Assembly (NCBI GenBank): GCA_015680905.1
Contig: CM027377.1
Span: forward strand, 88,949,001-89,013,000
Direction of reading: 5' to 3'
Length of the DNA: 64,000 bases
Source of the DNA: Coptis chinensis
Lineage: Eukaryota; Streptophyta; Magnoliopsida; Ranunculales; Ranunculaceae
The notes under the pieces: generated by a model
Told to the model about the DNA's origin: nothing
Seen by the model: the letters and a program-made list of their open reading frames with translations, nothing else
Databases searched by the model: none
Program-made: the position numbers and the translations under genes
Part shown: one piece after another, positions 1 through 50,313 of the stretch
Layout: each line of letters starts with the position of its first letter
Numbering within the stretch: the stretch's first letter is position 1

Positions 1-1330
1 TCCTTATAACATTCCACCATCCTGCGGTTGGTGCGGAACAAATTAAATTGAGGGTATTCCCTTTCACCTTAGCGATAAAGGCGTCTTGGTTAACGCCCAA
101 GCGCCTAGCCCTAATTAATGGACTCATGGGCCAAACTTGTTGTTTTGTTTATGGAACATTTTTACCCACCCCTAAAGGCGGATGAAATGCTTTCCAAGAT
201 TCACTTCTTTTCGACCTGAATGCTCATGAATCATTTTCAGGAGACTTGGAATCGTTTCACCGATCTGCTTATAGAGTGTCCACACCATAATCTAGCAAAA
301 GACACGTTAGTGCGTGCCTTTTCAAAAGACTTCAACATCACCATAAAGAAGTCCTTGACATAATGAATGGGGTAGTTTCCTAAGTAAAGGAGCCTCGAGG
401 CTTACAAATTTTAGAAGAACAAACTAAACGCTTAATAACAATTGGGGGAGTGATGATATCCCCCGCTCGCTAGTTCTTCTTCAACAGATTAAGGCGCCCG
501 GTATGTTTGAGATGAAACCCGATCCGAACTTAAAAATTTAATCGAATCTCTAACTAAAAAGGTAGAGGCTATTTCTATTCAACAAAAGCCTATCCCCGTC
601 ATGAACGTAAATTCAAATCCATGTAGTTTCTGTTGGAGTCCTGAGCATCCCGACTCCCACTGTCCTATAGCCTATGAACATTCTTGTTCCATTAATAGTG
701 AACCTAACGCCCCTTGGAGACAAAATCCTAACTTCGGTTGGAGAAATAACCAACAAGTCACACCTACAGGGTACAATAATCAATATATTAGGCCAACGCA
801 CAGTTATAACCAAGCTCCACCACAACAAGGACAGGGTCAGGGTAATTAAAATAATTATAACAACCAAGCATAACCTCGACAAGGTCAAGCACAAGGTCAA
901 TGTAGTTATAATAATTATAATGCTAATAGATGTATCGTTCCGGTAAATAATAACTATCACAATCCGCCCATAAATAATCAACACGAGATAGTTCCAGTCA
1001 CACCACCCGTGACTACTACACCCACACAACCGGATCGTCTTGACACCTTCATACAAGTGAGCCAACAACTTTTCCAAACCATGGCTCAATCTAACCAACA
1101 CATTCTACAATCCGTTAATAATTTAAACCAACAGTTAGCCCAAGAGAAAGCCCAACCAAAAGGCGTGTTTCCAGGCCAAGCGATACCCAACCCTAGAACA
1201 GCAAACACAGCCTTTGAAGTAAACGGTAATACTAGTGCGAAACTACAACCGTAGGTGAAGCTAAATGCCATCACCCTCTCCGTTCGGAAGAGTGGTTGAT
1301 AACAAAGTAACCATGCCTATAGTTACCCCA
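1..1330 (+). pseudogene. gag: gag (capsid/nucleocapsid) of copy 0, frameshifted and 5'-truncated
   Basis: Gag forms the particle that packages element RNA. Positions 1-420 match, in broken frames, the retrotransposon gag domain that is intact in copy I at 12000-12542. From 601 a frame opens with a CX2CX4HX4C zinc knuckle (CSFC...H...C), followed by an Asn/Gln/Tyr/Gly-rich tail to about 1250. Stops and frameshifts separate the blocks, for example the taa after the GQGQG stretch near 847. The ATG at 601 is an internal methionine, not the real start. Family assignment is firm from the parallel copies at 11035-11793 and 28208-28600. Confidence 0.85.
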
Positions 1331-1475
1331 TCAAGATACTCCTACACCGGATATCGAACTAGATACCGAAATAGAAACGAAGAACCTACCTTTTGTAGAG
1401 GTACTAGTTAAACCACAACCTAAGAAACAGAAAGCCAAGGTTACACATCAAGTCGAGCCATACGCTAAATATAGA

Positions 1476-1879
1476 GTGAAACCACCGTTCCCTAAGAAAT
1501 TAGCCATGCTAACCAGGGATACTAACTTTGAGGAGATTAGGAACGTTTTCAAAAATCTAACGATAAACCTTCCTTTTCTCGAAGCTATAAAAAAGCTACC
1601 TAACCACGCTAAGTTTCTTAAGGAGTTGTGCACTACTAGGCGTAAGACCAACATACCTAAAGACGCCTTTCTAACTGAACAGTTCCCAACTTTATCTGAA
1701 AGTAATGGAATTGTTAAGTACAAGGACCTCGGTCGCCCCATCTTGCATAATGCACCTTAGGAGATTCTCACACGACTACCGCGCTACTAGACCTGGGGGC
1801 TAGTGTTAACTTACTCCCGCTTTATTTGTATAAACAAATAGGTCTAGAGGAGATGCAACCTACTAAAATGACATTGTAA
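1476..1879 (+). pseudogene. gag-pro linker and N-terminal half of protease, copy 0
   Basis: The first 94 codons (1476-1760) encode the conserved segment preceding the Athila protease (PPFPKKLAMLTRDTNFEEIR), also seen at 29100-29300 and 40726-40980. After a frameshift near 1755 the aspartic protease active site reads LLDLGASVNLLP (about 1786-1821), the D-L-G-A-S form typical of Athila retropepsins. An in-frame taa at 1877-1879 separates this half from the downstream protease half. This is a relic of the processing enzyme; the stop probably disables it unless it is a sequencing error. Confidence 0.8.
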
Positions 1880-1912
1880 TTAGCGGATCGGTCTATTAAG
1901 TATCCTAAGGGT

Positions 1913-2998
1913 GTGGTTGAAAACGTGCTGGTTAAAGTCCAAAATTTTTACTACCCAGCCGACTTTGTTATCCTCGACACAGAAGTCACTAACGACTCTG
2001 TACCTATCATTTTAGGGCGTCCCTTCTTGGCTACTGCCAACGCGCTCATAAACTGCCGCGATGGTTCGATGTCCTTGTCCTTTGGCCATCTTTCTGTTGA
2101 GGTAAATGTTTTCAAAACGAGGACACAGTATCTCGATTCATCTACAAATGGCGAGGTTAGCATGATCGAGAGCTTAGCTCAAGATTACTTCAAAAACATG
2201 TTTCCGGAGAAACAGATTAACAAATTCCTTTCCTTCGGAAATTCCGACTTTAACAATGACTCCCTGGTAGTAGACGAAATCGAAGAAGAATTCCTGCAAC
2301 TCTTTTGCACCGCTTCTTTACCACGCGAGCCCCCGCCAACAACCATTCATCCCTTGATGCTATGGACGGAAGATGAATTTTTCAATCTCTATCCCGGTGA
2401 TCCTTTTGACCCACCTATTGAGGAATGTCTTGCATATATCAAGATTTCTGATGATATGGAATTGAGAGCTCTAGCTGAGAATCATTCACCTTCCCTCACC
2501 AATATTCCCCACCCTCCACCTTTTCAAAGGAACCTCGAGTTTGCACTCGATCCTTTAGTTTCTCCTGTGCTTCATGATTTTTTAAATCCACCTAGTAAAC
2601 AAATACTTCCCAAGGATAAACCACTTGACACCTTCATTTTCAGACTTGAGACAGTCCCTAACTACACCATGAATGAGTTTTGTGCTAAACCCACATCCTC
2701 ATTTTTTTCATGGTTTCCCTCTAAAAATTATCCCAATCCACCATATCTTCCACAACCATTCACTTTTCCACACTTATTCACTAGGACACCCTCTCATTCA
2801 AAGATGAAACATAAGGTGCATGCTCGGTTATGTTATAGGTCGATCCGACTTCGCTTTCATTCCACTAGGCTGCGTCGTAGGAAATCTTGGTGCTTGATTG
2901 TGTTTGGATATGTTTTCTGTGATATTTATTTATGGAATGATCCACAACTATTTCGGTTATTGATATATGATAAACTACATATTCATACATATATTTAG
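1913..2998 (+). CDS. protease C-terminal half fused in frame to novel ORF-X, copy 0
   Basis: This 361-codon frame opens in the protease (VENVLVKV...ILGRPFLATANALIN, residues 1 to about 70), passes through a linker shared with autonomous copies (to FLSFG, about residue 111), then diverges completely. Residues about 118-361 (ORF-X) occupy the place of RT, RNase H and integrase. ORF-X is Pro-rich (PREPPPT, PHPPPF, NYPNPPYLPQP), with an Arg/Lys-rich patch around residues 297-327 followed by a short hydrophobic run (CLIVFGYVFCDIYLW). I do not recognise a domain. The same ORF-X is in copy IV at 39414-40050 (-), where the frame continues into an integrase-like tail; here a one-base difference creates the stop at 2997. 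The true start would be upstream gag-pro; the ATG at 1913 is only the first methionine after the stop. Confidence 0.75.
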   Translation: MVENVLVKVQNFYYPADFVILDTEVTNDSVPIILGRPFLATANALINCRDGSMSLSFGHLSVEVNVFKTRTQYLDSSTNGEVSMIESLAQDYFKNMFPEKQINKFLSFGNSDFNNDSLVVDEIEEEFLQLFCTASLPREPPPTTIHPLMLWTEDEFFNLYPGDPFDPPIEECLAYIKISDDMELRALAENHSPSLTNIPHPPPFQRNLEFALDPLVSPVLHDFLNPPSKQILPKDKPLDTFIFRLETVPNYTMNEFCAKPTSSFFSWFPSKNYPNPPYLPQPFTFPHLFTRTPSHSKMKHKVHARLCYRSIRLRFHSTRLRRRKSWCLIVFGYVFCDIYLWNDPQLFRLLIYDKLHIHTYI

Positions 2999-3414
2999 AT
3001 AAAGTCTCGAGTATCTGACTATAAACGACTCAAATTTTGTGTTTGGTGCATTTCATTTCATTTCCATATATTGGTGAATGCACCATTCAGGTAACCAGGC
3101 CCTCCTTATGGAGTGTGTGGTTGTAAGTACCGGATCCTAAGTCCACGGTTCACATAATTCACGTTTTCCACTCTTGCATGTTTTCTTGGTTGTTGAGTCA
3201 TGTTTCTCTATGGTGTGAATTATGTCTTTACTGCTTCTTGTTTTCTTTTATATTAAACCTAATTCATAAAAAGTAAAAAAGTTTAAAGCTATAAAAATAG
3301 TAATCTAGCAAGTCTCGGGAATCTGACCTTAAAAGACCCAAGTTTTCGTACAATGCCAACTTTCTGGAGTATAGGCCAAACAAAAATTTCAAACTTAAAA
3401 AAGAGTTTTCCAAT

Positions 3415-3431
3415 TTTGTTTGGGGGGTATG
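3415..3431 (+). promoter_or_regulatory. internal polypurine-tract-like motif 1, copy 0
   Basis: TTTTGTTTGGGGGGTATG resembles the TGTTTGGGGTGG tract that precedes the 3' LTR. Equivalent motifs occur downstream of pol in copies II (27043), III (45701) and IV (39161). An extra plus-strand priming role is inferred. Confidence 0.45.
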
Positions 3432-3628
3432 TATTTTGGTATTCATTTCAAATCTTGTTGCCACCCTAAGCCTGTCATGTTTACTCCAAAGTAGAGTTTG
3501 TGTTAGTTAATGCGTAATGGTTTAATTGTGCTTCATATTATCATAACATCTTTACAATATTTTTACATTACAGATGCGCCAATTTTTGCCACGTTTCTAT
3601 GGTAAATTCTTTCCTTATCTCTTTACAC

Positions 3629-3670
3629 TTTGAGGACAAAGCGTTGATTGTTTGGGGGTGGGATAGAAAC
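3629..3670 (+). promoter_or_regulatory. internal polypurine-tract-like motif 2, copy 0
   Basis: A TTTGAGGACAAAG element is followed by TTTGGGGGTGGGATAGAAAC, the same two-part arrangement as the true polypurine tract (TTGAGGACAAG then TTTGGGGTGG). Motifs 2 and 3 and their downstream bases look like a tandem duplication of about 160 bp. Confidence 0.45.
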
Positions 3671-3803
3671 ATTTGCAAAAATTAGACACTTTTAGGATGT
3701 AAATTATGCACTTTTATTTATAAAATGTTAAAAATTATAAAAATTAGTTAGTTACATAATTTAATTGTGCTATTGAATTGTTTCATGAACCCCTTCTCCC
3801 AAA

Positions 3804-3826
3804 TTGTTTGGGGTGGTATAGAAACA
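3804..3826 (+). promoter_or_regulatory. internal polypurine-tract-like motif 3, copy 0
   Basis: TTGTTTGGGGTGGTATAGAAAC matches the tract that in copies II, III, IV and V follows ORF B (23236, 49481, 35284 and 61740). Confidence 0.45.
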
Positions 3827-5236
3827 CGATGTAAATGTTAAGCACATATTAGGTTGTATATTACGTATTATTTGTCTTAAAAAAAAAAATAAAAATAAAA
3901 AGTTTATGCTATACACTTAGGAATATTGGTATTGTTTCTTTTCTCTATGCTCTTAATAATCTAGAAGTCTCACGTAGCTTTTGCATTAGACTAGTTTTTA
4001 GAAACTTAGGTTAATATGTAGGTAATAATCTTTGCATCTATCTATAAATATATTACATGAGTATCTATGATTGTTTGTTTTAAAGAAGTTTTGAAATCTA
4101 GGCTAGAGTACTTATTCTACAAATCCTGTGAGAATATATCCTAAAGCCTTATATGAGTGAAACATTTGAGAAATGACACAAGGGAGAAGTATATTCCGAA
4201 TAGAGAAATCACACGTCCACATGCTTGACCACTATACCATGTCCTAAGAGAGAATTTAGGCCCTTTTTTGGATCGATATAGCTAGAAATTCGATCTAAGT
4301 ATATTTTCCGCTAGTTAGCCCTAATTGAGCCTTTTATTAGCCCTTTCATAAACCACAAATCCTTTACCCTGTTACAAAAAAAAAAAAAAAAAAAAAAATA
4401 AAAATAAAAATCAACCTACCCAATTTAGATAAGTCTGAGAATAGAATAAGGAAGAAAGAAGAAGAGAAAAACCTGTATAAACAAAAGTTAATTAATTGCT
4501 TCAAAAAATAAAGAAAAGAAGTTTTTATCCAAAGAAAAGAAAAATAAAAATAGAAATAAAATAAAAAATCCAAAAAAATAGAATAAAAGAAGTCAAAAGC
4601 CAAAGAAAAAGGAAAAAAAAATATGGCTAAGGATGGAAACAAAGTGTAGAAGCAAAAGTAAATAACAAGGTTTTCTCTAGTTACATAATATGAAGACTCT
4701 ATTATCTTAGACTTGTCCCTTTTGAATATCCATTTCCTTCCTTCTTAAACCATCTCCTAATCCCCGTAACACCTAATAAAGACCTCTAGCTCAATTAGGA
4801 ATAGGTTAGTGGGATAGTAAGTGGCAGATGTGTTTGATCAACTTCGGCTTCCTTGTGTGTCATTGAGATTGTAAGGTAAAGTATGCCCACTGCACATTGG
4901 AGTAGCAAAACTTGAGTGGAAAAATCAGAGTGATTTTTGTCTTGACTTTTATGTGAGAACCTACTTAAGGATGTTATTCCAAAGTTTCAGAAACGGACCT
5001 GTTACTGCATTTCATAGCATTACTCATTATATATATGTTTATTCGTAAATGATTGATTATTATGCATATATTAGCTTAGGTTTCGACTTGATTACTCTAT
5101 ATGCATTGCTAGTGAGAGGTATAGTTAATTTAGAGCATGAATAAAGAAACAATAGTTTTATTTCTTAGTCGTTGTAGTATAGATGAAGTTTGTGAGTACC
5201 TTCACTAGAAAACTCTCACGAGGCTATAACTTCGGC

Positions 5237-5257
5237 CCACTAGGGAATTCCTAGTGG
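5237..5257 (+). other. conserved hairpin upstream of 3' LTR, copy 0
   Basis: A perfect 8-bp stem CCACTAGG/CCTAGTGG encloses the loop GAATT, 137 bp upstream of the LTR. The identical hairpin is in copies II, III, IV and V. The function is unknown. Confidence 0.8.
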
Positions 5258-5363
5258 TTTAAAGCGCCTTGTTGCATATGGTCAATGCAATGCAATACAA
5301 ATAAAGCGAGAGTAGATAGAACTCTATTTTTGGTCACTTATTCTAATTTCTCATCTTTGCTTG

Positions 5364-5393
5364 AGGACAAGCAAAATGCTGTTTGGGGTGGTT
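5364..5393 (+). promoter_or_regulatory. polypurine tract, copy 0
   Basis: GAGGACAAGC, then GCTGTTTGGGGTGGTT directly adjoins the LTR start TGATAAG. This is the expected plus-strand primer position. Confidence 0.7.
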
Positions 5394-6862
5394 TGATAAG
5401 AGCCCAAAAAATTGTAGTTTTAACCCCTTAATAATCATACTTTTAGACCAATTATGTGAGTAATAATTAAGAGTTAACACCGATTCACGTGTTTTTATGC
5501 ATTTCGGGCTTCAAAGTCCATTATGTGCAGAAATGCCACTTTTAGCGAGATAAAGGAGCAAAGGTCAGTTACGAAGGAGTTCCGTGATTAAAGGCCAAGA
5601 TTCAAGAAGATAAAGCCTTTCGAAAGCCCGGTCAAAAGCTGAAAAGTCGACGCGGGCAGAAACAGCACACAAGTCAGCAGAACTTCCAAAGGCCGTATCT
5701 TTGGACTCAGACCTCGGAATGGGGCCTACCTTATGTCAAAACGACTGAATCGGAAAGAGCTTTCCAATGGTTCAAGCCTTGAGCCAATCAGAGGAGCAGA
5801 AGTCAACGAAAAGTCTGTTGAAGCCAACTGCAGCTGAAGAGGCCTTTTTGGACTGAAAGAATTGGGTTTTGGGCCTAATTCTCTGGCCCAAAACATGGCT
5901 CCAAGCCCATGCACGATTTTTGGATCTGAGAGTATAAAAACCAAAGCTTCACTCTTTGTTAATGGTAGATAGTTAGACCTAGATTAGAAATTAGATTAGT
6001 AGCCTCCATTAATTAGTTTTAGATCTTAGTTTTAGAATTTCATTCCCTATTTTAGATTAAAACTTTAAATCATTGTTCTTTATTGATTAGATAAAGAAAA
6101 TAGTTATTCTTGTCAATTTCAATTTTTGTCATTTACAATTTATTAGATCTAATTTCAATTCTTGTTATCATTCAATTCTTAGTTATTAATTAGATTTCGA
6201 TTATTGTTTAGTTAAATTTCATAAAGTTAGAATCTTTGTAATATGTTGTATTCAACTTCAATGGGAAATGATGGGTTGATGATTCGAGGCTAAAACCTCC
6301 ATTAGAGGGGTTGATGAAGCTTTGATGAAAACTTAGTGGTATAGTGTAGAAGCATTGTAGAATCTATTCCACTCTAGAAGGTCGTGTTTCGCCATAAGAA
6401 TGGGTGACGACCTCACATGCTAGTTAGTATTTGGTAGAAATGCCATGAACACTAGGGATTAGAACTCGAAATTCTTGCCGTAAGAACGTAAGAATCGAGA
6501 TACAAGAACCTAAGCTAGGTTATCAAGTTGGATTAGAGGTGGATTCAATTCCCCTCTAATCCTTTATCTAGATTCAAAAACAATCATATTTCCATATATT
6601 TCGTAGTGACATTCAACATATTGCTTTTCATATTGCATCGTAGTATAATTCCACTTCGTAAAACTCTCATAGACTTAAGACCGACTAATTAGACTAGAGA
6701 ACATTCCATGCTAGAGAACTAGGAGTGGAACGAATCACTCTACTCCACTATATTTCGATAGATTTGAGAGTAGAAAACTTTGATAAATATAGGCACGTAA
6801 ATAACCGTTTAGAGTTTCATCGCTTTATTTCGTAGGTAAAACTATTCATTTTACGTTTATCA
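5394..6862 (+). repeat. 3' LTR of copy 0 (long class)
   Basis: The LTR starts TGATAAGAGCCC and ends TTACGTTTATCA, giving the short inverted ends TGATAA/TTATCA. It is 1469 bp and carries the block of about 130-150 bp (roughly 5560-5690) missing from short-class LTRs. A TATA box lies at 5932-5939. The next bases, ACTTC, already belong to copy I. Confidence 0.9.
5931..5940 (+). promoter_or_regulatory. TATA box in LTR of copy 0
   Basis: AGTATAAAAA, at the same relative position as GTATAAAAC-type boxes in the LTRs of II (21117-21126, -), III (51668-51676, +) and IV (33269-33276, -). It is likely the U3 promoter. Confidence 0.55.
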
Positions 6863-7085
6863 ACTTCCTAAATTACTATGTTTGTGATTTTAACAATTTT
6901 TTAATTTTTTTTTTGAATAAGGTATAATATAAAAGAAGCAAGAAAGCAATAAATGCATAATTCACACCATAAAGGAACATGACTCAAAATCTGAGAAAAC
7001 ATGAAAGAGTAGAAAACGTGAATTATGTTAGTCGTGGACTTAGGATCCGGTACTTACAGCCACACACTCCATAGGGAGGGCCCGG

Positions 7086-8401
7086 TTACCTGAATGGTGC
7101 ACTTACCAATATATGAAAATGAAAGGAAGTACACCAATGAAAATGCCAGTCCTCATAGATAAGGTCCTGTAAAAGGACTTCCTCTACATTAGGGGACAAA
7201 AACTCGTGGAAATGTTTCAACCGTAGGCCATTGACTTGAAAGATACTGTTGTTCTTGGGATTTACCAAGGTTATTGCCCCGTGAGGGGTGACTTCAGTAA
7301 CTAGAAAAGGGCCAAACCAACGGGTTTTTAATTTCCCTAGAAAAATATATAGACGGGAGTTGTAAAATAAGACCTTTTGTCCTACCACAAACTCTTTGTG
7401 CAAGATTTGCTTATCATGAACACGTTTCATGTTAGCTTTATAATCTTTCGCGAGATCATAAGAATCGCTACGGATTTCTTCAAGCTCGTTCAATTACAAC
7501 TTGCGCTTGACACCCACCTCATCAAAATTGAAGTTAAGGCTTTTTATAGCCCACATAGCGAGGTGCTCTAATTCGACGGGCAAATGACAAGGTTTCCCAA
7601 ATACAAGTCTAAAGGGAGACATACATATAGAAGTTTTGAAAGCAGTCCTAATGCCCATAAGGCATCAGAGAGACACTTTGACTAGTCTTTCCTATCAGGA
7701 TTTATAGTTGTTTCTAATATCTTTTTGATTTCCCTATTAGAAACTTCTACATGTCCGCTAGTTTGTGGATGATACGGAGTTGCTACCTTATGTGTAACTC
7801 CATAATTTTTCACGAGATATGCAACAACTCTGTTGCAAAAATGTGTTCCGCCATCACTAATGATGGCTTTGGGAATGCCAAATTGACAGAAAATATACTC
7901 TTTAACAAAAAACACAACTATCTTATGGTCATTGCTACGACAAGCCATGGCCTCTATCCATTTAGATACGTAGTCCACGACAACTAAAATATAAATGAAA
8001 CCGTGGGAAACTGGAAAGAGACACATGAAATCAATGCGCCATACGTCAAATATTTCTACCACCATGATTGTATTTAATGGCATCATATTACGCTTCGTGA
8101 TTCAAACAAGTTGTTGGCAACGAGCACACGTCTTGCAATGCACTTGGGCATCTTTAAAGAGAGTAGGCCAATAAAACCCACATTGAAGAATTTTAGCAGC
8201 TGTTTTCATACCACTAAAATGGCCACCACAATCTTTGTCATGGCAGAATGAGAGAACCTCATTATATTCCCATTGGGGAATACAACAACGAATAATCTGA
8301 TCCGCATAATACTTGAAAAGGTAGGGCTCATCCCAGTAGTATAGCTTAACCGGCCAAGAACTTCTTACGTTCATTTCTTGACCAATCATAAGGAATAACA
8401 T
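7086..8401 (-). pseudogene. integrase of copy I in three frame blocks
   Basis: Integrase joins element cDNA to host DNA. Block 8102-8401 carries the N-terminal HHCC zinc domain (CGGHFSGMKTAAK...CKTCARCQQL). Block 7682-8086 carries the catalytic core: first Asp in WRIDF, second in [10 protein letters not shown], and the Glu in [13 protein letters not shown], so all three DDE residues remain. Block 7086-7493 is the C-terminal domain (VGQKVLFYNSRL...KTRWFGPF). Frameshifts separate the blocks near 8090 and 7500-7680. The C-terminal frame runs to 7086, just short of the post-integrase block. Confidence 0.85.
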
Positions 8402-8600
8402 TGGTTGCTAAATAATTCACAATGTCAGCATACCATGATGCTGAAAAAATAGCATATAGATGGTAATCAGGAAAAGAGTCTGGTATGGACTCAGAATCAC
8501 TATCATCGTCGTTTGTAAGTCTAGATAAGTGGTCGGCAACTACGTTTTCGACCCCTATTTTGTCCTTTATTTTTAATGTGAACTCTTGTAGGAGAGGAAT

Positions 8601-10142
8601 CTATCGGATTAATCTCTGCTTAGCATACTTCTTTGCGAGAAGGTACCTAAGGGCTACATGGTCCGTGTAAACTAGAGTCTTAAAACCAACCAAATAAGGG
8701 CGAAACTTACCTAAAGCATAAACGACAGCTAAGAATTCTTTTTTAGTAGTTGTATAATTCCTTTGAGCATCGTTTAGAGTTCTACTAGCATAATAAATAA
8801 CAGTGGACTTATTATCTAGTTTCTGTCCTAAGACAGCACCAACTGCATAATCACTAGAATTACACATGAGTTCGAAATGTTTAGACCAATCAGGAGGTTG
8901 TATAATGGGTGTAGAAGTTAAGGCGGCTTTTAAAGTTTCAAAAGCTTGTTTACAGTTAAAATTAAAATAAAAAATGGCATTCTTTAAAAGCAGATTAGTT
9001 AACGGCCTAGCTATTTTCAAAAAATCTTTGATAAAGCGCCTATAAAAACCTACATGGCCTAGAAAGGCTCTAATATCACGGACAGTCTGTGGTATAGGTA
9101 GAGCCACTATCTTATCTAGTTTGGCCTTATCTACTTCGATGCCATCACTAGATACAATGTGACCTAGTACTATGCATTTTTCCACCATGAAATGACATTT
9201 TTCCCAATTTAAAACCAGACTCTTCTCTTCACATCGTGTCAAAACTTTAGACAGGTTAGCCAGGCAGTCCGTGAAAGAGTCTCCATAGATAGAAAAATCA
9301 TCCATGAATACTTCCATGAAAAGCTCTACCATGTCACTAAATATATGAAGCATACACCGATGGAAGGTACCAGGAGCATTACAAAGGCTAAAAGGCATTC
9401 GTTTATAGGCGTATGTTCTAAAAGGACATGTAAAGATAGTCTTTTCTTGGTCATCAATATCAATAATAATTTGGAAATAGCCAGAGTAGCCATCCAAAAA
9501 ACAATAAAAAGCATGACTAGCTAGACATTCAAGCATCTGATCTATAAAGGGTAAAGGAAAATGATCCTTCCGTGTCATGGCATTTAAACGTCTGTAATCA
9601 ATATAGATCCTCCATTTCATAGGACCATGTGTGGCAACATATTCACCCTTGGCATTACGTACCATGGTAATCCCTGATTTCTTAGGAACTACATGAATGG
9701 GACTAACCCATTCGCTATCAGAGATTGGGTATATGATACCTACATCAAGTAATCGTAAGACTTCTTCCCTGACCACTTCTTTTATGGCAGGGTTCAAACG
9801 ACGCTGAGGTTCGCGAGAAGTCTTTGTGTTATCTTCCAAATGGATACGATGAGTGCATACATTAGGGTCAATTCCCTTAATGTCGGCTAGGGACCAACCA
9901 ATCGCTGAACGATGTTCCCTAATCACCCTGATCAAATGTGTCTCTTCCTCCTTAGATAACAGAGAAGATATTATTATCGGATGACTACCATCTAGATGAA
10001 GTTGAATATACTTTAACTCAGGAGGAAGAGGTTTAAGCACCGGGGTGGAAGGAATATCGATAAATGCTTCTGGGGGGGTCCTTATCTTGAGTAATGAATA
10101 CTTGCTTAGGCAGCATGTCTCCAAACTCTGTAGATGGAGCAA
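8601..10142 (-). CDS. reverse transcriptase-RNase H of copy I, 513-codon open frame
   Basis: This is the best preserved pol segment in the window. The RT domain spans about residues 110-310: the first catalytic Asp is in FLDGYSGYFQI and the catalytic pair in VFMDDFSIYG (FMDD form, usual for Athila). RNase H follows (about 400-513), with FELMCNSSDYAVGAVLGQ and YTDHVALRYL. The first RNase H Asp appears replaced: copy III reads C-D-A-S-D where this copy reads C-N-S-S-D. The frame ends at a frameshift; integrase continues below 8401. The real protein would be processed from a gag-pol polyprotein, so the first ATG is not a start. Confidence 0.9.
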   Translation of the reverse strand: MLHLQSLETCCLSKYSLLKIRTPPEAFIDIPSTPVLKPLPPELKYIQLHLDGSHPIIISSLLSKEEETHLIRVIREHRSAIGWSLADIKGIDPNVCTHRIHLEDNTKTSREPQRRLNPAIKEVVREEVLRLLDVGIIYPISDSEWVSPIHVVPKKSGITMVRNAKGEYVATHGPMKWRIYIDYRRLNAMTRKDHFPLPFIDQMLECLASHAFYCFLDGYSGYFQIIIDIDDQEKTIFTCPFRTYAYKRMPFSLCNAPGTFHRCMLHIFSDMVELFMEVFMDDFSIYGDSFTDCLANLSKVLTRCEEKSLVLNWEKCHFMVEKCIVLGHIVSSDGIEVDKAKLDKIVALPIPQTVRDIRAFLGHVGFYRRFIKDFLKIARPLTNLLLKNAIFYFNFNCKQAFETLKAALTSTPIIQPPDWSKHFELMCNSSDYAVGAVLGQKLDNKSTVIYYASRTLNDAQRNYTTTKKEFLAVVYALGKFRPYLVGFKTLVYTDHVALRYLLAKKYAKQRLIR

Positions 10143-10290
10143 CAGAAGGGTCTACGATAGGTGTAGACTCGAAGATGGTTTTGACTTCCTCTAAGTAGGA
10201 GTCATCGGCGAAATCTGAACTTCCAAAAGACAGGAATTTATGCGTTTGGTTTTCTATAAATGTTTTATTAAAATAATCTTGAGCTAAGCT

Positions 10291-10700
10291 CTAGATCATG
10301 CTTACCTCCCCATCTACAGATGAATCTGGTAATTGTTTCAACATTTTAAAAACATTTACCTCAACAGAAAGATGGCCAAAAGATAAGGACATCGAACCAT
10401 CGTGGCAGTTTATGAGCGCGTTGGCAGTTGCCATGAAAGGATGCCCTAAAATGATTAGAACAGAATCGTTAGCGACTTCTGTATTGAGGATAACAAAATT
10501 AGTAGGATAGTAGAAATCCTGGACCTTAACAAGCACGTTTTCAACCACACCCTTAGGGTACTTAATAGATCGATCCGCTAATTGCAACATCATTTTAGTA
10601 GGTTGCATCTCTTGTAGACCTATTTGTTTATATATATAATACAGGAGTAAGTTAATACTCGCCCCCAGGTCTAGTAAAGCGGTCGTCGCGTGGGAATCTC
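10291..10700 (-). pseudogene. aspartic protease of copy I
   Basis: The active site reads LLDLGASINLL (about 10640-10680, minus strand). It is followed by LADRSIKYPKGVVENVLVKV and the second conserved motif ILGHPFMATANALIN, where the usual GRPF is GHPF. The reading is continuous from the active site to 10291. Upstream, 10780-10990 holds the gag-pro linker with frameshifts. Confidence 0.8.
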
Positions 10701-11034
10701 CTAAGGTGCATTGTATAGTGGGACGACCAGGGTCTTTATACTTAACGATTCCATTGTGTTCTGTTAAAGTTGGAAACTGTTCAATTCAAAAGGTGAGGTA
10801 ATTTTTTAATTGCTTCCAGAAAAGGTAAGTTTATCGTTAGATTTTTTAAAATTTTCCTAATCTCGTCAAAGTTTGTATCCCTGTTTAACATAGCTAATTT
10901 TTAGGGAAATGGTGGTTTCTCTCTATATTTAGCTTATGGATCAATTGGATGTCTAACCTTTGCTTTCTGTTCCTTAGGTTGTGGTTTAACTGGTTCCTCT
11001 ATAGGGGTAGGCTCATCAGTTTCTATTTCGGTAT

Positions 11035-11793
11035 CTATTTCAATCTCCGGTGTAGGACTACTTGTGGGCTAACTATAAGCATAGTTACGTTGTTATCAAC
11101 CACTCTCCCAGAACGGTGAGTGGTGATGGCATTCAGCTCACCTACGTTTGCATTTTTCGGACTAGTATTACCATTCATCTTAAAGGCTGTGTTTGTTGTT
11201 TTAGGATTAGGTATTGCTTGTCCTGGAAACACACCTTTAGGTTGTACTTTCTCTTGTACTAACTGCTGTAAGGAAAGTTGGACGGCTTGTAAAATCTGTT
11301 GTTGAGATTGCATAAAGGTATCGAAACGATCCGATTGTGGAGGAGTGTTAGCTATAGGTTGTGTGACAGGAATTATGTCACGTTGATTATTAATTGGTGG
11401 ATTTTGAAAGTTATTATTATTAACAGGAACGATACCTCTATTAGCATTATAATTATTATTGTTATAATTATTATAATTACCCTGACCTTGTCCTTGTCGT
11501 GGTTGAGCTTGGTTGTTATAATTATAATTACCCTGACCTTGTCGTGGTGGGCCTTGGTTATAATTGTTTGTTGGTCTAACATTTTGATTATTAAACCCTA
11601 GAGGTGTTACTTGTTGATTATTTCTCCAACTGAAGTTGGGATGTTGTCTCCAAGGGGCGTTAGGAATAGGATAACTATTAATTGAGCAAACGTTATCTTG
11701 TTGTAATGTTTGTTGTTCGTAAGCGAGAGGACAATAGGAGTCTGGATGCTCCAGACTCAAACAGAAATTACATGGATTGGTGTTGACATTCAT
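11035..11793 (-). pseudogene. gag: gag C-terminal half (nucleocapsid) of copy I
   Basis: A 252-codon frame starts with a CX2CX4HX4C zinc knuckle ([14 protein letters not shown]). A long tract rich in Asn, Tyr, Gln and Gly follows (repeated NYNNYNN and QGQG), then QPKGVFPGQAIPNPK and the RSGR motif common to Athila gag. Low-complexity Asn/Gln/Tyr tails suit RNA binding or condensate formation, which is inference. A stop just upstream (near 11795) separates it from the N-terminal gag half. Confidence 0.85.
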
Positions 11794-11999
11794 GACGGGA
11801 ATAGGCTTTAATTTTGTTGAACAGAAATAGCCTCTACCCTTTTAGTGAGAGATTCGATTAAATTTTTAAGTTCAGGGTCGGGTTTCATCTCAAACATACC
11901 GGCGCTTTTTACTGTTGTAGAAGAACTAGCGGAACGGGAGATATCGTCACTACTATTATTATTATTACGCTTAGTTTGATCTTCTAAAAATTTATAAGC

Positions 12000-12542
12000 C
12001 TATGAGGCTCCCTTACTTACGAAACTACCCCCATTCATTATGTCAAGGACTTCTTTATGGTGTTGTAGAAGTCCTTTGAAAAAGGCACGAACTAATGTGT
12101 CTTTCGCTAGGTTATGGTGTGGACACTCTATAAGAAGATCGGTGAAACGATTCCAAGCCTCTGAAAATGATTCATGAGGATTACGTCGAAAAGAAATGAA
12201 TCTTGGAAAGCATTTCATCGGTCTTCGATGGTGGGTAAAATGTTCCATAAATAGTTGAACAAGTTTAGCCCACGAGTCCACAGAATTAGGCGCTTGGGCA
12301 GTTAACCAAGATGCCGCCTTATCGGCTAAAGTGAAGGGAAATACCCTCAGTTTAATTTGTTTAGCACCAACCATAGGATGGTGGAATGTAGTAAGGACTT
12401 GGTCAATCCTACGCATGTGTTGATAAGGCTTTTCATGGTCTAACCCATGGAAAACGGGTAACAAATTAAATATATTTAGGGGGATTCTGAAATCACCCAC
12501 TGGGTCTGATAGAACGATGCAAGATTTGGGGCTATCGTTCAA
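12000..12542 (-). CDS. gag: gag N-terminal half (retrotransposon gag domain) of copy I
   Basis: A 180-codon frame has the retrotransposon gag (capsid-like) signature: IKLRVFPFTLADKAASWL, then WAKLVQLFMEHF, then ESFSEAWNRFTDLL and CPHHNL. It ends at a tag at 12000-12002, where other copies read through (GAS then YKFLEDQTKR), so it is one substitution away from joining the C-terminal half. The methionine at 12542 follows ordinary leader sequence and may be near the true start. Confidence 0.85.
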   Translation of the reverse strand: MNDSPKSCIVLSDPVGDFRIPLNIFNLLPVFHGLDHEKPYQHMRRIDQVLTTFHHPMVGAKQIKLRVFPFTLADKAASWLTAQAPNSVDSWAKLVQLFMEHFTHHRRPMKCFPRFISFRRNPHESFSEAWNRFTDLLIECPHHNLAKDTLVRAFFKGLLQHHKEVLDIMNGGSFVSKGAS

Positions 12543-13256
12543 GGCTTTATAAAAGTCAGAGAGAGGAGACTCTCTTCTTCAACCATTATTTCAGGTGGTG
12601 TGTGTGGTATATTAGCTAGAGGTGTAGTGAGTCTTATACTAAAAGGCGTGTTTGTTGACGCTGCTGGTTGATTACGTTAGGCGTTTTTCTTCGGCCTGAC
12701 CTTAATCTCATGGAAGGCTAAGACCAATCTTAACTAAACACGACAACACTCCAAACAATCCTGATATGCTAGTATGAACCTCTAACAGGAGATGCGAGGT
12801 GTGGAAGAAAAGAGTACCTGAATACCTCCTTGCTCCGCTTATGAATAACGTCTTGTATATGCGTGCTCAGTGTATATAACAAGTTAGAACACTAAAAACC
12901 TTGAAGAAATTGAAATTTGAAACAAACCTATGGAAATCGAGCAGTTTCAGCAGAAGGCGCAGGTCGCTCTCAGAATAGTCCTATGTAGGGCGCGGGTCGC
13001 GCTCAGGTCAACCTGTAGTTCCAGGCATTTGGGCGCGGGTCGCACTCAGGGAGAAACTCAAGGTCCAAGCACTTGGGCGCAGGTGGCGCTCAAATTTAGG
13101 CTGCCTAAGGCGTGGGTCGCTCTCCGTGTAATTCTGCGAGGAAAAATTTCAATGCTAAAATGGACAACCACAGTTAGAATCAAACAAGGGTGGGTGGGTT
13201 TGGGACTTTGGAAGACTAACAATTCTAAAGAAAACAATACTAAAGGGAACTAAGAT
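12543..13256 (-). other. 5' leader of copy I with GC-rich tandem block
   Basis: Untranslated region between PBS and gag. Positions 12950-13135 hold about five imperfect repeats around GGGCGCRGGTCGCGCTC, spaced roughly 40-50 bp. Equivalent blocks occur in the leader of copy IV (42990-43160) and upstream of ORF B in II, IV and V. The open frame through it on the plus strand is a by-product of composition. Confidence 0.65.
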
Positions 13257-13269
13257 GGCAGCGGCGCCA
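13257..13269 (-). promoter_or_regulatory. primer binding site of copy I
   Basis: Minus strand TGGCGCCGCTGCC, two bases from the LTR end. It resembles the plant tRNA-Asp type (TGGCGCCGTTGCC), with one difference. Confidence 0.8.
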
Positions 13270-13271
13270 TT

Positions 13272-14813
13272 TAATAAACGTAAAAAAATGAATAATTCTA
13301 CTCACGAATAGAATGATAAAACTTCTAAACGAAAGTAAAACTAAAACTATACAAAGACAGTGTTTATCAAAGATTTCTACTCTCGAATCTATCAAAATAG
13401 AGTGGAGTAAAAGATTCGTTCTACTCTTAGTTCTTTAGCATTCAAAGTTTTCTATGATTATGAGTCTATCCAAAGTTAATGAGAGTTTTACGAAGGGAAT
13501 TATACAACGATGTCAATTCAAATACTAAATAAGATACGAATAACAAAAATGACGGAAATGCTAATGTTGAATCTAGATAAAGAATTAGGGGGGATTGATT
13601 CCACTTTAACTCGACTTAATTCACTAACGAAGAGTCGTCGAAATCCAAATTGAACTGCTTTCGCATAACAATTGGTTCTTCCTAATCCCTAATTGTTCAT
13701 GGTAATCTCTACCAACTAACATCTAGCATGTGAAACAATCAAACCCATTCTCATTCTCATGGTGAACTAATCGTTTTCTAGAATGGAATGGAAATTATGA
13801 CTACTCTACGCTAACACAAATCAAGCTTCATCAAGGTTTCTTCAACCCCTTCTAATGGAGGTTTAGCATATAATCATTATGCTATCATTTCCAATTGAAA
13901 TTAAACTAGACATCATATAAAGATTCTAACTTTACTAATTTAACTAATCAATAATTCAAATCTAAATTAACAACTAAGAAATGAAATTGATTCTAATGAA
14001 TTTAATAATTGAACTAGATTATGATTAACTAATTGTGAAATAAAGACAACTAATTTAAGAATTTAATAATACTAAACTTAAACAAGACTTTAATCAATAA
14101 CTAAATTGGAATGAAATTGAATACTTTATTATAAACTAATATTTGATTCTAAAATAACAATCTATTTGTTCTAATACTAATTAATTGAAAGGGAAAACTA
14201 TTCTAAAACAATAATTGAAAACTAATTAATAGAATAAAACTAAAAAAACTAGATCTAGAAATCTCTAATGGCTACTTTCTACCCTAAGCTAATAGATGCT
14301 TAAGAGCTAAGTCTTGTGTGTGGAAATGGAGGAGACCAGATCCACATTTTCGTGCATGGGCTGAGGAGCCATGTTTTGGGCCGGAAAATTGAGCCCAAAA
14401 CCCAATTTCTTCAGTCCACAGAGCTCTTTTCAACTGGCTTTGACTTCAACAGACTTTTCGTCCACTTCTGCTCCTCTGATTGGGTCAAGGTTTGGACCAT
14501 TGGAAAGCTCTTTCCGAGTTAGTCGTTTTAACATAAGTATGCCCAATTCTGAGGCCTGAGTCCAAAGATATGGTCTTCGGAAGTTCTACTGACTTTTGTA
14601 TGTTGTTTCTGCCCGCGTTGACTTTGACTTTTTATCTTTTGATCTGGCTTTACAAAGGCTTTTTCTCCTTGAATCTTGGCTTTTAATCACAAAACTTCTT
14701 AGCAAGCAACCCTTGCTCCTTTATCTCCCCAAAGTGGCACATTTATGCACATAATTGATTTCAATGCCTGAAGTACATAAAAACACGTAAACTACAGTTT
14801 TGGGCTCTTATCA
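13272..14813 (-). repeat. 5' LTR of copy I (long class)
   Basis: 1542 bp, reading on the minus strand from TGATAAGAGCCC (14813) to a mutated terminus at 13272. It includes the block absent from short LTRs (about 14585-14715). A clear TATA box was not found at the position used by other copies. It diverges visibly from the other LTRs, suggesting an older insertion. Confidence 0.85.
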
Positions 14814-15763: not shown

Positions 15764-16560
15764 GTGGAAATTGTAGGTGGTAGCTCGCCAAAGACCACTT
15801 TCATTGGCACCTTGTTGAGTTCGAAAGAGCGCCAAACTCTGATACAGTTCCTCCGAGAGCACAAAGATGTGTTTGATTGGCCATTCGAAGAAATACCAAG
15901 AATTGACCCTCATGTGGCATGCCACCAACCCAATGTCCATAGTGATGGAATAGTGATGGAGCAGAAACCAAGAAGGATAGGTGCTGACAGATCAGGGCGG
16001 TAAAAGCTGAAGTTGAGAAACTAAAAGCAGCTAATTTTGTAAGGGAAATTAATTTCCCCACCTGAATTTCTAATATCGTCCCAATAAGAAAGAAGAATGG
16101 GTTGTGCAAAATCTGTATTGACTTCACAGATCTGAACCGTGCATGTCCAAAAGAAAGCTACCCTTTGCCACAAATTGACAAGTTGGTGGATGCGACAACT
16201 GGACATGAACTGTTATTCTTCACAGATGGGTCGTCAGGCTACATCCAGATCCCTTTACATGAAGAGGACCACAAGTATGCTAGTTTCACAATCGAGGATG
16301 GCCTGTACTGCTATCAGGTCATGCCATTTGGATTGAAAAATACATGAGCCACATACCAGCTTTTGGTAAACAAGATGTTCGAAAGATTAATAAGCAACAT
16401 TATGGAGGTGTGTGTGGACAATCTCTTGATCAAGAGTCTGAAATGAGGAGATCATCTCTCCTAGTTGAAACGTGCATTTGACATTTTTCAAGACTCCGCA
16501 TGAAGCTCAACCCTGCGAAATGTGTTTCGCTGTATCATTAGGAAAGTTTTTAGGATACCT
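15764..16560 (+). pseudogene. Tat reverse transcriptase, broken
   Basis: Block 15764-16003 holds the RT N-terminus (FLREHKDVFDWPFEEIPRID). Block 16102-16347 holds the fingers and palm with CKICIDFTDLNRACPKESYP, FFTDGSSGYIQIPLHEED and YQVMPFGLKN, and ends at a tga where other elements have an Ala codon. The active-site region follows at about 16404-16440 as VCVDNLLIKS: the usual YVDD is CVDN, so the second catalytic Asp is lost. Confidence 0.85.
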
Positions 16561-17110
16561 GGTTACTTGGAGAGGGATTGAGGGGAACCAAGATCAGATC
16601 CAAGCGCTCATAGAGATGCCCTTACCTAAAAACATGAAAGAGGTTCAAAAAGTTACAGGTAGGTTAGCAGCTCTGAACAGGTTTATCTCCAAGAGTTCAA
16701 ATAAGTGCAAACCACTATTTCAGTTACTGCGAAAGAACACCTCCTTCGTATGGATGGAAGAGTACCAAAAGGTGTTCAATCAACTCAAAACAAACCTAGG
16801 GGCACCGCCGATACTTTCAAAGCTTGTTGAGGGAGAAGTCCTCGGTCTTTATCTCTGTTCCTCTGACTACGGCATCAATTATGTACTGATACCCATGGAT
16901 AAAAAGAAGGTTGAAAAGCCTGTCTATTTCTTGAGCCAAACGTTCCTACCAGCATAAACAAGGTACCTTCAACTCAAAAGAGTCGCTTTAGCACTTGTTT
17001 TTGCCGCAGAGAAATTACGACCGTACTTCCAGTCCCACACCATCAGAGTGATCACAAAGTACCAATTGCGATCAGTTCTAGAATGACCGAACAAGTCAGG
17101 AAGGCCAGCT
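16560..17110 (+). pseudogene. Tat RT connection and first RNase H
   Basis: The frame to 16957 runs through the RT thumb/connection (KNMKEVQKVTGRLAALNRF) and into RNase H (CSSDYGINYVL, PVYFLSQT). It ends at a taa at 16955, after which the family motif for the end of RNase H (LRPYFQSH) is readable to about 17060. Both stops and the altered residues indicate it is inactive. Confidence 0.8.
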
Positions 17111-27486: not shown

Positions 27487-28207
27487 TCATATATAGGGTC
27501 CCGTAAAAGGACTTCCTCTATATCGTGGGGGAAGTTCGTGAAAATGTTTTAATCGTTGACCGTTAACTTGAAAGGTACTGTTGTCCTTGGGATTTACCAA
27601 GGTAATTGCCCTGTAAGGGGTGACTTCAGTAACCAGAAAAGGGCCAGACCAACGGGTTTTTAGTTTCCCTGGGAAAATATGTAGACGGGAGTTGTAAAGC
27701 AAAACCTTTTGTCCGACCACAAACTCTTTGCGCCAAGATATGCTTATCATGAACACGTTTCATGTTGGCTTTATAATCCTTGGCGAGATCGTAAGAATCG
27801 CTACGGATTTCTTCAAGCTCATTTAATTGTAACTTGGGTTGAAAACCGCCTCATCAATATTGAAGTTAAGGTTTTTATAGCCCACGAGCACGGTGCTCTA
27901 ATTCAACGGGCAAATGACATGGTTTCCCAAATACAAGTAAAAGGGAGACATACCTATAGGAGTTTTGAAAGCAGTTCTATATGCCCATAAGGCATCCGAT
28001 AGACGCTTCGACCAGTCTTTCCTATCAGGGTTTACTGTTGTTTCTAAAATCTTTTTGATTTCCCTATTAGAAATTTCTACTTGTCCGCTAGTTTGTGGAT
28101 GATAAGGAGTTGCTACTTTGTGTGTAACTCCATACTTTTTAACTAGGGATGCAACAACTCTGTTGCAAAAATGTGTTCCACCATCACTAATGATGGCTTT
28201 AGGAATG
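27487..28207 (-). pseudogene. integrase C-terminal part of copy II
   Basis: From 28207 leftwards: the core around the second Asp ([13 protein letters not shown]), the Glu motif ([13 protein letters not shown]) and [21 protein letters not shown], ending at a frameshift near 27898. The C-terminal domain follows in 27487-27756 (VGQKVLLYNSRL, KTRWSGPF). The upstream integrase half is missing because the sequence joins copy III gag at 28208. Confidence 0.85.
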
Positions 28208-28610
28208 AATGTAAACTCCAACCCATGTAATTTCTGTTTGAGTCTAGAGCACCCTGACGATTATTGTCCTCTAGCTTATGAACAACAACCACCAGAACAA
28301 GATAATGTTTACTCTATTAATAACTATCCTATTCCTAACGCCCCTTGGAGACAACATCCCAACTTCAGTTGGAGAAATAATCAACAAGTAACACCTCCAG
28401 GGTACAATAATCAAAATGTTAGGCAAGCAAACAATTATAACCAAGCTCCACCTAGGCAAGGACAAGGACAAGGACAAGGTCAAGGGAATTATAATAATTA
28501 TAACAACCAAGCTAACCAACACAAGGTCAACGACAAGGTCAGAATAATTATAATAATTATAATACCAATAGAGGTATCGTTCGGTTAATAATAATAACTA
28601 TCACAACCCA
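28208..28610 (+). pseudogene. gag: gag zinc knuckle and Asn/Gln-rich tail, copy III
   Basis: Begins at the codon series [10 protein letters not shown]; the knuckle is [14 protein letters not shown] (CX2CX4HX4C). GQGQGQG and NYNNYNN repeats follow. The frame enters from inverted integrase at 28208, so the 5' half of gag is absent. A frameshift near 28510 breaks it. Confidence 0.85.
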
Positions 28611-28724
28611 CCCATAAATAATCAACGAGAGATAGTTCCAGTCGCACCACCCGTGACTACTACACCTACACAACCGGATCGTATCGACGCCTTTATATAA
28701 GTTACCCAACAACTTTTCCAGACA

Positions 28725-29306
28725 ATGACTCAATCAAACCAACAGATTTTACAATCCATAAATCAGGGCATACAACACTTAGCCCAAGCGAAAGCCCAAC
28801 CAAAAGGCGTGTTTCCAGGACAAGCGATACCAAACCCTAAAACAGCAAACACAGCCTTTGAGGTAAACGGTAATTCTAGTACGGAAACTACAATCGTAGG
28901 TGACCTAAATGCCATCACCACTCTCCGTTCTGGAAGAGTGGTTGATAACAAAGTAACTACGCCTATAGTTACCCCATCAATACTCCCTACACCAGATATC
29001 GAACTAGATACCGCAATAGAAACTGAGGAGCCTACCACCGTAGAGGTACCAGTTAAATCACAACCAAAGAAACCGAAAGCCAAGGTTACACAGCAAGTAG
29101 AGCCATATGCGAAATATAGAGCGAAACCACCGTTCCCTAAAAAATTGGCCATGCTAACCAGGGATACAAACTTTGAGGAAATTAGGAACGTTTTCAAGAA
29201 TCTAACGATAAATCTTCCTTTTTTGAAGCTATTAAAAAGCTACCTAACCACGCTAAGTTTCTTAAAGAGTTGTGCACTACTAGGCGCGAAAGACCAACAT
29301 ACCTAA
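28725..29306 (+). CDS. gag C-terminus and gag-pro linker, copy III
   Basis: A 193-codon frame. QPKGVFPGQAIPNPKTANTAFEVNG and TLRSGRVVDNKV mark the end of gag; a Thr/Pro/Glu-rich spacer follows, then PPFPKKLAMLTRDTNFEEIR of the protease linker. It ends at a frameshift near 29222 relative to copy 0, with the remaining linker readable to about 29400. It is part of a polyprotein, so the ATG is internal. Confidence 0.75.
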   Translation: MTQSNQQILQSINQGIQHLAQAKAQPKGVFPGQAIPNPKTANTAFEVNGNSSTETTIVGDLNAITTLRSGRVVDNKVTTPIVTPSILPTPDIELDTAIETEEPTTVEVPVKSQPKKPKAKVTQQVEPYAKYRAKPPFPKKLAMLTRDTNFEEIRNVFKNLTINLPFLKLLKSYLTTLSFLKSCALLGAKDQHT

Positions 29307-29399
29307 AGACGCTTTTTAGCTGAGCAGTTCCCAACTTTATCCGAAAATAATGGAATTGTTAAGTACAAGGACCATGGTCGCCCCATCGTAAAATGCACC

Positions 29400-30074
29400 T
29401 TAGGAGATTCCCACGACGACCGCCTTTTATTAAAACACGGGGCGAAAGTGTTAACTTACTCCCCGTGATTACTTGTATAAACAAATAGGTCTACAGTGAA
29501 ATGCAACCTACAAAAATAACGTTGCAATTAGCGGACCCAGTCAATTAAGTATCCTAAAGGTGTAGTGAAAAACGTGCTTGTTAAGGTTCGGATTTCTACT
29601 ATCCCGCTGATTTTGTTATCCTCGATACGAAAGTCGCTAATGACTCTGACCGATCATCTTAGGGCGCCCCTTCTTGGCAACCGCCAACGCGCTTTATAAA
29701 TTGTCGCGATGGAAAGATGTCCTTATCTTTTGGCCATCTTTCCGCCGAGGTAAATGTTTTAAAATGATGAAACAGGTTACGATTCGATTCGCGTAGATGG
29801 GGAGGTTAGCATGATCGAGAGTTTAGCTCAAGATTATTTTAACAACACGTTTCCTGAAAACAATATGTACAAATTCCTTTCTTTTGGAACTTCAGATTTT
29901 GTAAATGACTCCTACTTAGAGGAAGTCAACACCATCCTGGAGTCCACACCAATTGTAGACCCGTCGGTTGCTCCATATACTGATTACGAAGACTTGCTAC
30001 CTAAGCAAGTCTTCATTACGCAAGATAAGGACACTTATGAAACATCAACGGACATTCCGCCCCACACTGCTTAA
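29400..30074 (+). pseudogene. protease and pro-RT linker, copy III
   Basis: The protease is recognisable at the DNA level against copies 0 and I (LADRSIKYPKG and GRPFLATANAL regions at about 29520-29700) but is heavily frameshifted. The DLGAS active-site region (about 29430-29460) is garbled. The linker 29811-30074 is open (MIESLAQDYFNNTFPE ... FLSFGTSDF) and continues into the pol-specific spacer that ORF-X replaces in copies 0 and IV. Confidence 0.75.
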
Positions 30075-31560: not shown

Positions 31561-31699
31561 GAGTTGCCGACCACTTATCTAGACTTACAAATGACGATAG
31601 TAGTGATTCTCGAGTCCATCTGGGACTCTTTTCCCCGATGAGCATCTCAGATGCTATTTTTTTTTCATCACCATGGTATCGCGGGACATCGTGAAATTA

Positions 31700-32317
31700 T
31701 TTAGCGGCTGATGTTATGCCTTATAATTGGTCAAGAAATGAACGTAGAAGTTCTTGGCGAGTCAAGTTATACTTGGGATGAGCCCTACCTTTTTAAGTAT
31801 TGTGCGGATCAGATTATTCGTCTTTGCATTCCCGGTGGGAATATAATGAAGTTCTATCGTTCGCCATGACAAAGAGTGTGGTGGCCACTTTAGTGGAATG
31901 AAAACAGCCGCTAAAGTTCTTCAATGTGGATTTTATTGGCCTACCCTTTTAAGGATGCCCAAGTGCATTGCAAGGCGTGTATTCGTTGCCAACAACTTGG
32001 GCTTAATCAACGGCGTAATATGATGCCATTAAATCCAATCTTGATAGTAGAAATTTTTATGTTTGGGGTATTGATTTCATGGGACCTTTCCCTGTTTCCC
32101 ACGGTTATATTTATATTCTAGTTGTCGTGGACTACGCGGTCTAAATGGATAGAGGCCCTAGCTTGCCGTAGAAAGCAATGACCATAAGACCGTTGTATTT
32201 TTTATTAAAGAATATATTTTCTATCGGTTTGGCATTCCTAAAGCCATCATTAGTGATGGTGGAACACATTTTTGCAACAGAGTTGTTGCATCCCTAGTTA
32301 AAAAGTATGGAGTTACA
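31700..32317 (+). pseudogene. integrase 5' part, copy III, up to insertion of copy IV
   Basis: Contains the zinc-binding region (KDAQVHCKACIRCQQLG at about 31950-32000), the core start and the second Asp region ([14 protein letters not shown] at about 32235-32275). It ends ...KYGVT at the TTACA target. The gene resumes at 44673 with [14 protein letters not shown]. Confidence 0.85.
32313..32317 (+). other. target-site duplication TTACA, left copy
   Basis: Directly before TGATAAC of copy IV; the matching TTACA is at 44673-44677 after the other LTR. Removing copy IV and one TTACA restores the integrase DNA seen at 28110-28120 (reverse strand). Confidence 0.95.
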
Positions 32318-33705: not shown

Positions 33706-33841
33706 AACCACCCAAAAACAAAGATTTTGCTTGTCCTCAAGCAAAGATGAGAAATTAGAATAAGTGACCAAAAATGGAGTTCTACCTAATCTCGCTTTCA
33801 CTGAGTGCAATTGCATTGACCATATGCAACAAGGCCTTAAA

Positions 33842-33862
33842 CCACTAGGAATTCCCTAGTGG
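33842..33862 (-). other. conserved hairpin, copy IV
   Basis: Stem CCACTAGG/CCTAGTGG with a 5-base loop, 136 bp from the LTR. Confidence 0.8.
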
Positions 33863-35283: not shown

Positions 35284-35330
35284 TGTTTCTATGCCCCCAA
35301 ACAAAAAGCATGCTTTGTCCTCAAAGCATT
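35284..35330 (-). promoter_or_regulatory. polypurine-like motif after ORF B, copy IV
   Basis: Minus strand CTTTGAGGACAAAGC then TTTGGGGGCATAGAAAC. Confidence 0.5.
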
Positions 35331-43286: not shown

Positions 43287-43288
43287 TT

Positions 43289-50261: not shown

Positions 50262-50313
<52 letters not shown>

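Follow-up and report, generated by a model that had tools for sequence, protein, structure and literature searches.

The locus analysed here raises the question of how a retrotransposon without a polymerase gene can move, and what the open-reading frame that stands in place of that gene is. The window, a stretch of 64,000 nucleotides from chromosome C1 of the 936 Mb Coptis chinensis genome, is densely filled with nested LTR retrotransposons. Two of these, copy 0 (1-6862, forward strand) and copy IV (32318-44672, reverse strand), are gypsy/Athila-type insertions in which the protease runs into a frame designated ORF-X and not into reverse transcriptase (RT), RNase H and integrase, the domains RVT_1, RNase H and rve being present in the pol-bearing neighbours. 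We take the pol-less elements and their neighbours to belong to Athila, the pol-less copies offering no RT by which to be placed in a tree.

Pol-bearing element I occupies 6863-14813 on the reverse strand, with RT and RNase H at 8604-10142, integrase at 7685-8086 and the primer-binding site (PBS) at 13269. Pol-bearing element III (28205-52611, forward strand) lies in two pieces, 28205-32317 and 44673-52611, since copy IV is inserted in its integrase region; its RT is at 30044-31498, its integrase at 32055-32317 and about 44673-44773, and its 3′ LTR at 51125-52611. Of element II, the integrase end alone remains inside the window, and at 28205 this end (reverse strand) meets the middle of the element III gag (forward strand) in an inverted join of two truncated elements. 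A distant RT of another retrotransposon group, 29-34% identical to that of element I, is found at 16108-17062. Copy 0 is complete, with a length of 9.2 kb, a 5′ LTR lying left of the window edge (L069:1857-3332), a 3′ LTR at 5394-6862, an LTR identity of 95.2% and the 5-bp target-site duplication (TSD) ACTTC (6863-6867). It adjoins element I, and the sequence on its left side is similar to a post-integrase region, so that copy 0 probably interrupts element I, as judged from the arrangement of the sequence. Copy IV had been described as having a clean TSD and near-identical LTRs; the 5-bp duplication TTACA is indeed present at 32313-32317 and 44673-44677, but the LTRs are only 94.8% identical.

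In copy 0, the protease and ORF-X form one open frame of 372 codons plus stop (1880-2998, forward strand), in agreement with the first-pass annotation, which had placed ORF-X in frame with the protease. That annotation had also proposed that the sequence leaves the autonomous pattern and later rejoins it, and the DNA similarity of copy 0 to pol-bearing copies does end at ~2263 and restart at 3037-3043. The same replacement is found in both pol-less copies, with 2504-3338 of copy 0 matching 40042-39214 of copy IV at 84.4%. Within ORF-X, an acidic, linker-like N-terminal part (2255-2497), which differs in sequence from the IV type, is followed by a core of 166 codons (2498-2995) common to the young, L018 and IV types and gapped in L025b; the core of copy IV lies at 39546-40042 on the reverse strand. 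A short stretch at the right junction (2999-3036) resembles 3310-3358 and 27119-27085 of another element in a partly by-eye alignment, and leads into the post-integrase tail (3037-3313) held in common with pol-bearing elements. The repeat pair 2999-3036 and 3310-3358 brackets this tail, and the alignment of L009, L016 and L025 with copy 0 skips from 3038 to 3310, as if the repeats had recombined.

The composition reported earlier for ORF-X was reproduced on copy L030, with 12% proline, 14 lysine and arginine residues in the final 70 and a 16-residue hydrophobic run. That both copies carry the same ORF-X holds for the last ~166 residues but not for the first part, where the IV type, represented by the stand-ins L061 and L066, has an unrelated acidic stretch. 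In the assembly, the ORF-X of copy IV is interrupted by numerous small indels and by stops. Copy 0 itself contains a local, compensated frameshift at ~2336-2368, relative to which 18 of 19 aligned young and L018 copies show +4 and -1 and L027 shows +4 without -1; the compensated shifted reading is present in copy 0 and L030 (2 of 18 alignment rows). A natural copy, L029, carries a single gag-pro-X frame of 865 codons, the longest among the 150 matches listed, in which no frame beginning at a gag start was identified.

These elements are repeated across the genome and are not confined to the two copies of the window. When 240 bases of ORF-X served as a DNA query, all 40 candidates scored matched at 94-100% (best 40 of 1606); a search with the copy IV version gave 40 of 40 at 93-100% (best 40 of 3111), and a search with the ORF-X protein gave 150 of 150 at 84-100% identity (best 150 of 16187), the candidate totals of this first look being loose and not copy numbers. 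By hand count, 100 of the 150 protein matches had no stop in the matched stretch, in a list that is ranked by similarity and thus biased toward intact copies. Copy IV is therefore a member of a second repeated pol-less type. Twenty loci were taken as 10-kb stretches (L009-L028), 16 of them with an LTR pair and an LTR identity of 94.5-97.7%, the pairs of L012 and L023 being cut at the stretch end. Elements spanning 8.9-9.5 kb were flanked by a 5-bp TSD in 11 of the 16 by a script whose pattern misses some, TSDs being visible by eye in L017 and L020. None of the 20 stretches gave a pol DNA match longer than 150 bp, and no RT or integrase protein match fell inside their elements; one distant RT lies in the L010 flank, outside the element. 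The pol-less subfamily proposed from the window alone is supported. Downstream of X, copy IV and L018 retain remnants of the 3′ ORFs that pol-bearing elements carry separately, as L048 does when judged by eye, and in eight other fetched stretches just one piece of a 3′ ORF, of at most 39 residues, matches there.

The PBS TGGCGCCGCTGCCATCTTAGT is identical in pol-bearing copy I, copy 0 and several fetched copies, with variants in other copies, and the LTR start TGATAAGAGCCC is common to copy 0 and the pol-bearing copies I and III. Within the LTRs, some blocks of some pol-less copies are 92-96% identical to elements II and III, and in those same blocks the pol-less copies diverge from one another by up to 29%. 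In LTR columns 900-1200, for example, some pol-less copies are 92-96% identical to II or III and others 70-73%, and the copy I LTR reaches 70-73% at best. Across most of the second two-thirds, the copy I LTR is 63-80% identical to pol-less LTRs at best, so that, even with the same PBS, no donor family is singled out. Among the pol-less copies (L009-L028), identity of LTR blocks ranges from 53 to 100%; against L016, bins of young X are mostly at 95-98%, compared with 69-98% for the LTR and leader bins 900-2700.

Mosaic LTRs combined with a uniform X fit template switching between co-packaged RNAs, which would imply shared particles and enzymes. The PBS, LTR ends and LTR blocks that match pol-bearing neighbours make movement in trans likely, and with the repetition in the genome and the TSDs in 11 of 16 stretches this mobility, which the first-pass annotation had put forward, becomes very likely on sequence grounds. 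Like the non-autonomous partner described in PMC11302176, these elements are devoid of RT and integrase, share PBS and LTR ends with pol-bearing elements and occur as structurally whole, recent insertions.

We also asked how strongly ORF-X is selected. Uncorrected dN/dS was 0.51 between types and 0.53 within the young type, the within-young set drawing 19 of 38 copies from the list ranked by protein similarity, and for this reason copies chosen by DNA similarity and a substitution-spectrum correction were adopted. Nineteen young copies, excluding L018 (a type of its own) and L022 (cut), were compared with 21 IV-type copies. The corrected omega of the protease between types was 0.34, with 29 silent and 22 replacing fixed differences and 1 stop (P = 4e-5), compared with 0.76 for the X core, with 18 silent and 35 replacing (P = 0.13). 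Comparisons inside each type gave an omega of 0.55 (young) and 0.57 (IV) for the protease and of 1.09 (young) and 0.76 (IV) for the core. Core values against L018 were 1.10 (young) and 0.79 (IV), and against L025b 0.77 (young) and 0.83 (IV). Amino-acid constraint on the core thus appears weak at best.

The frame itself behaves differently. Between L018 and L016, X has accumulated 53 substitutions and 0 indels over 747 bp, and the LTRs 293 substitutions and 26 indels, 21 of which are not multiples of three. At the LTR rate, ~3.8 frame-shifting indels would be predicted in X, giving zero a chance of ~0.02. The protease of the same pair shows 3 indels at 26 substitutions, indicating that the frame is sometimes broken in individual copies. 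Between young and IV cores, the sole fixed indel is one base at the last codon, beside 56 fixed substitutions. The L025b core has stops; relative to the young reference it shows changes of -33 and +9 bases in addition to the same last-codon base. These comparisons share branches and are not independent.

Broken frames of single copies have to be read with care, as IV-type X indels cluster at particular sites, with 104 of 175 lying within two bases of CAG or CTG, where such sites make up 14%. The corresponding counts are 50 of 167 against 19% of sites for the IV protease, 21 of 55 against 16% for the young protease and 8 of 87 against 6% for young X. Some enrichment is also seen in other contexts: in the young protease, 33 of 55 indels lie at CG (27% of sites), and in young X 45 of 87 lie at CAT/ATG (28%). 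A clear link to CAG/CTG is therefore limited to the IV type. In the ORF-X of L049-L068, the differences between otherwise near-identical copies lie in short hypervariable tracts grouped around CAG/CTG. Methylation-linked read errors or true local hypermutation could produce such indels, and the clustering makes single-copy frameshifts, including those of copy IV, unsafe as evidence of decay.

These results bear on the earlier proposal that a fused ORF had been kept by selection or as a captured function. Retention of the reading frame argues against pure filler, whereas a core omega of more than twice that of the protease weakens the case for a captured function, as does the linker-like N-terminal part; such a function is possible. 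A rival reading makes ORF-X a functional accessory domain, for example one that targets Gag-protease to membrane or nucleus or brings the pol-less RNA into particles, to the advantage of the family. The frame kept across types, with its single terminal indel, would favour this, as would a basic-hydrophobic C-terminal end that is very similar in young and IV types and the position of X among the best-conserved stretches of young copies. Pointing the other way are omega values of 0.76-0.83 for young-IV, young-L025b and IV-L025b, of 0.79 for IV-L018 and of 1.1 for young-L018, with no significant excess of silent fixed changes (18 of 53). Over the final 120 bases of the core there are only four fixed differences, split evenly between first and third codon positions, so that no clear protein-level constraint is seen there, and the stops in L025b and the failure of AlphaFold2 to find a fold for ORF-X (pLDDT 35.5, from 18 closely related rows) also speak against this role, which we regard as unlikely. 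A narrower version, in which ORF-X, a lineage-specific accessory domain replacing pol, enables Gag-protease to serve pol-bearing relatives as a dedicated partner or to exploit them as a parasite, seems more doubtful still.

Unlikely as well is that ORF-X is neutral filler, open by chance since most copies are young. An omega of 1.09 within the young type, the weak constraint between types and the absence of any detected homologue are what filler would give, but the indel-free 747 bp of X between L018 and L016 and the single terminal indel fixed between young and IV cores are not, within the limits set by the shared branches.

The origin of ORF-X was pursued in its two parts. The young-type X has 249 codons, about 83 acidic, fast-changing residues followed by the 166-residue core. 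A likeness to the protease-RT linker of gag-pro relatives extends over residues 16-83, its score being reached by 1 of 600 shuffles. These residues are also similar to the part of the frame immediately preceding X (7 of 5000 shuffles), a similarity that was noticed after looking. For the core, no such source emerged. A search of 5.8 billion proteins that detects only proteins with common 5-residue words and similar length returned no homologue at E up to 1, either for the protein query P0001 (236 candidates) or for the profile A2, built from 6 rows (3613 candidates). In the same database, a gag-pro-X query returned 1037 proteins, 120 of them listed and many named as plant proteins, indicating that plant elements are represented there. 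The ORF-X core likewise had no match in Pfam (0 families at E up to 10) or PDB. No protein homologue pointed to a cellular source gene, host genes not being separable from the many element copies in a genome search that scores the best candidates only. A likeness of the middle of X to the tails of RT-less gag-pro proteins (P0020, P0034 and others) was not significant (12 of 60 shuffles) and was set aside. Five gag-pro proteins (P0020, P0024, P0028, P0034 and P0097), four of them listed as jgi hypothetical proteins, have repeated linker modules, a common tail near PPPF.DH and none of the RT motifs checked; they are perhaps another pol-less gag-pro family with a tail of its own.

Two known sources were considered for the core. 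An envelope-like or Athila ORF-1 third gene, moved beside the protease after pol was lost, might be suggested by the hydrophobic run at the ORF-X end and by the pol-less gag and env Athila elements known in Arabidopsis (PMC2410132, in the text available). Remnants of the 3′ ORFs are nevertheless still downstream of X in copy IV, L018 and, by eye, L048; tblastn of three 3′ ORFs against copy 0 gave a best E in X of 0.79; and the best 19-residue hydropathy mean is 1.03, with a hydrophobic run of 16 residues. The Pfam null includes PF03078 and PF20167, the Env-like and Athila ORF-1 families according to the accessible text of PMC6317226 and PMC11728184, and with the tblastn null it led us to reject this very improbable identity. 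Decayed pol, or pol in another frame, is the least probable source and was rejected, since the ten-residue likeness of the C-terminal end to the integrase start (YLWNDPQLF vs FLWDDPYLF) is scored as well by 28 of 60 shuffles, the core matches the 120 listed gag-pro relatives no better than 70 of 400 shuffles, and the window outside X and its right flank gave no tblastx hit better than E 0.92 and no blastn hit better than E 0.32.

The account that we consider probable is that these are non-autonomous Athila-type elements, served in trans and recombining at the RNA level, whose ORF-X is a weakly selected tail of Gag-protease with an orphan core. Such elements would keep gag and protease, having lost RT, RNase H and integrase, and would be copied and inserted by the enzymes of pol-bearing relatives with the same primer site and LTR ends, with whose RNAs their own would recombine. 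We infer both the supply of enzymes and the recombination step from the shared signals and the mosaic LTRs. ORF-X would form the C-terminal end of this Gag-protease polyprotein and consist of an expanded linker and an orphan core, joined on where pol was lost; its basic, partly hydrophobic end would close the polyprotein in frame, with weak selection presumably keeping it open and demanding little of its exact sequence.

This polyprotein bears on why pol-less families retain coding capacity, as it offers an internal comparison between a protease that is clearly selected and an orphan tail that is kept in frame with its sequence hardly selected. LTR blocks are patchily common to pol-less and pol-bearing elements, and the pol-less coding part is nearly uniform. 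If the accessory-domain reading were true, a retrotransposon would have given up its engine and acquired a new function at the protein level.

Pol-less Athila families that keep gag, with recombination between families, have been described in Arabidopsis by Marco and Marin in 2008, and purifying selection was reported for their Gag and Env ORFs (PMC2410132, in the text available). The pol-less form, supported here as a subfamily, was already published as a kind. The two cases are alike in the loss of pol, the retention of gag and recombination; in Arabidopsis, the second ORF is Env-like, whereas the present elements retain the protease and carry, fused to it, an orphan tail under weak constraint (PMC2410132, same portion). 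RLG_Quinta of einkorn, the non-autonomous partner of RLG_Cereba, encodes GAG and a DUF without RT or integrase, and resembles the present elements in its one GAG-DUF ORF and in sharing its PBS and LTR ends with the autonomous partner; it differs in being centromeric and in that only GAG and DUF1 are named for it (PMC11302176, as far as its accessible text goes). Fatima subfamilies of bread wheat have gag and protease ORFs only, RT and integrase being suggested to come from another subfamily, and this gag-protease form is alike, with no orphan tail described in the available part of that report (PMC6097303). An orphan domain fused to the protease and replacing pol in Athila was not reported in the literature searched, subscription papers aside. 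Additional ORFs of plant LTR retrotransposons are of unknown origin and occur in most or all members of a family; according to the accessible sections of these reports they accompany pol and are mostly placed either 5′ of gag-pol or in the interval from pol to the 3′ LTR (PMC7264820, PMC6317226, PMC11728184). ORF-X differs from these in standing where pol was, fused to the protease. Pol-less partners that keep gag are thus already known, and it is the orphan core and its measured selection that look new.
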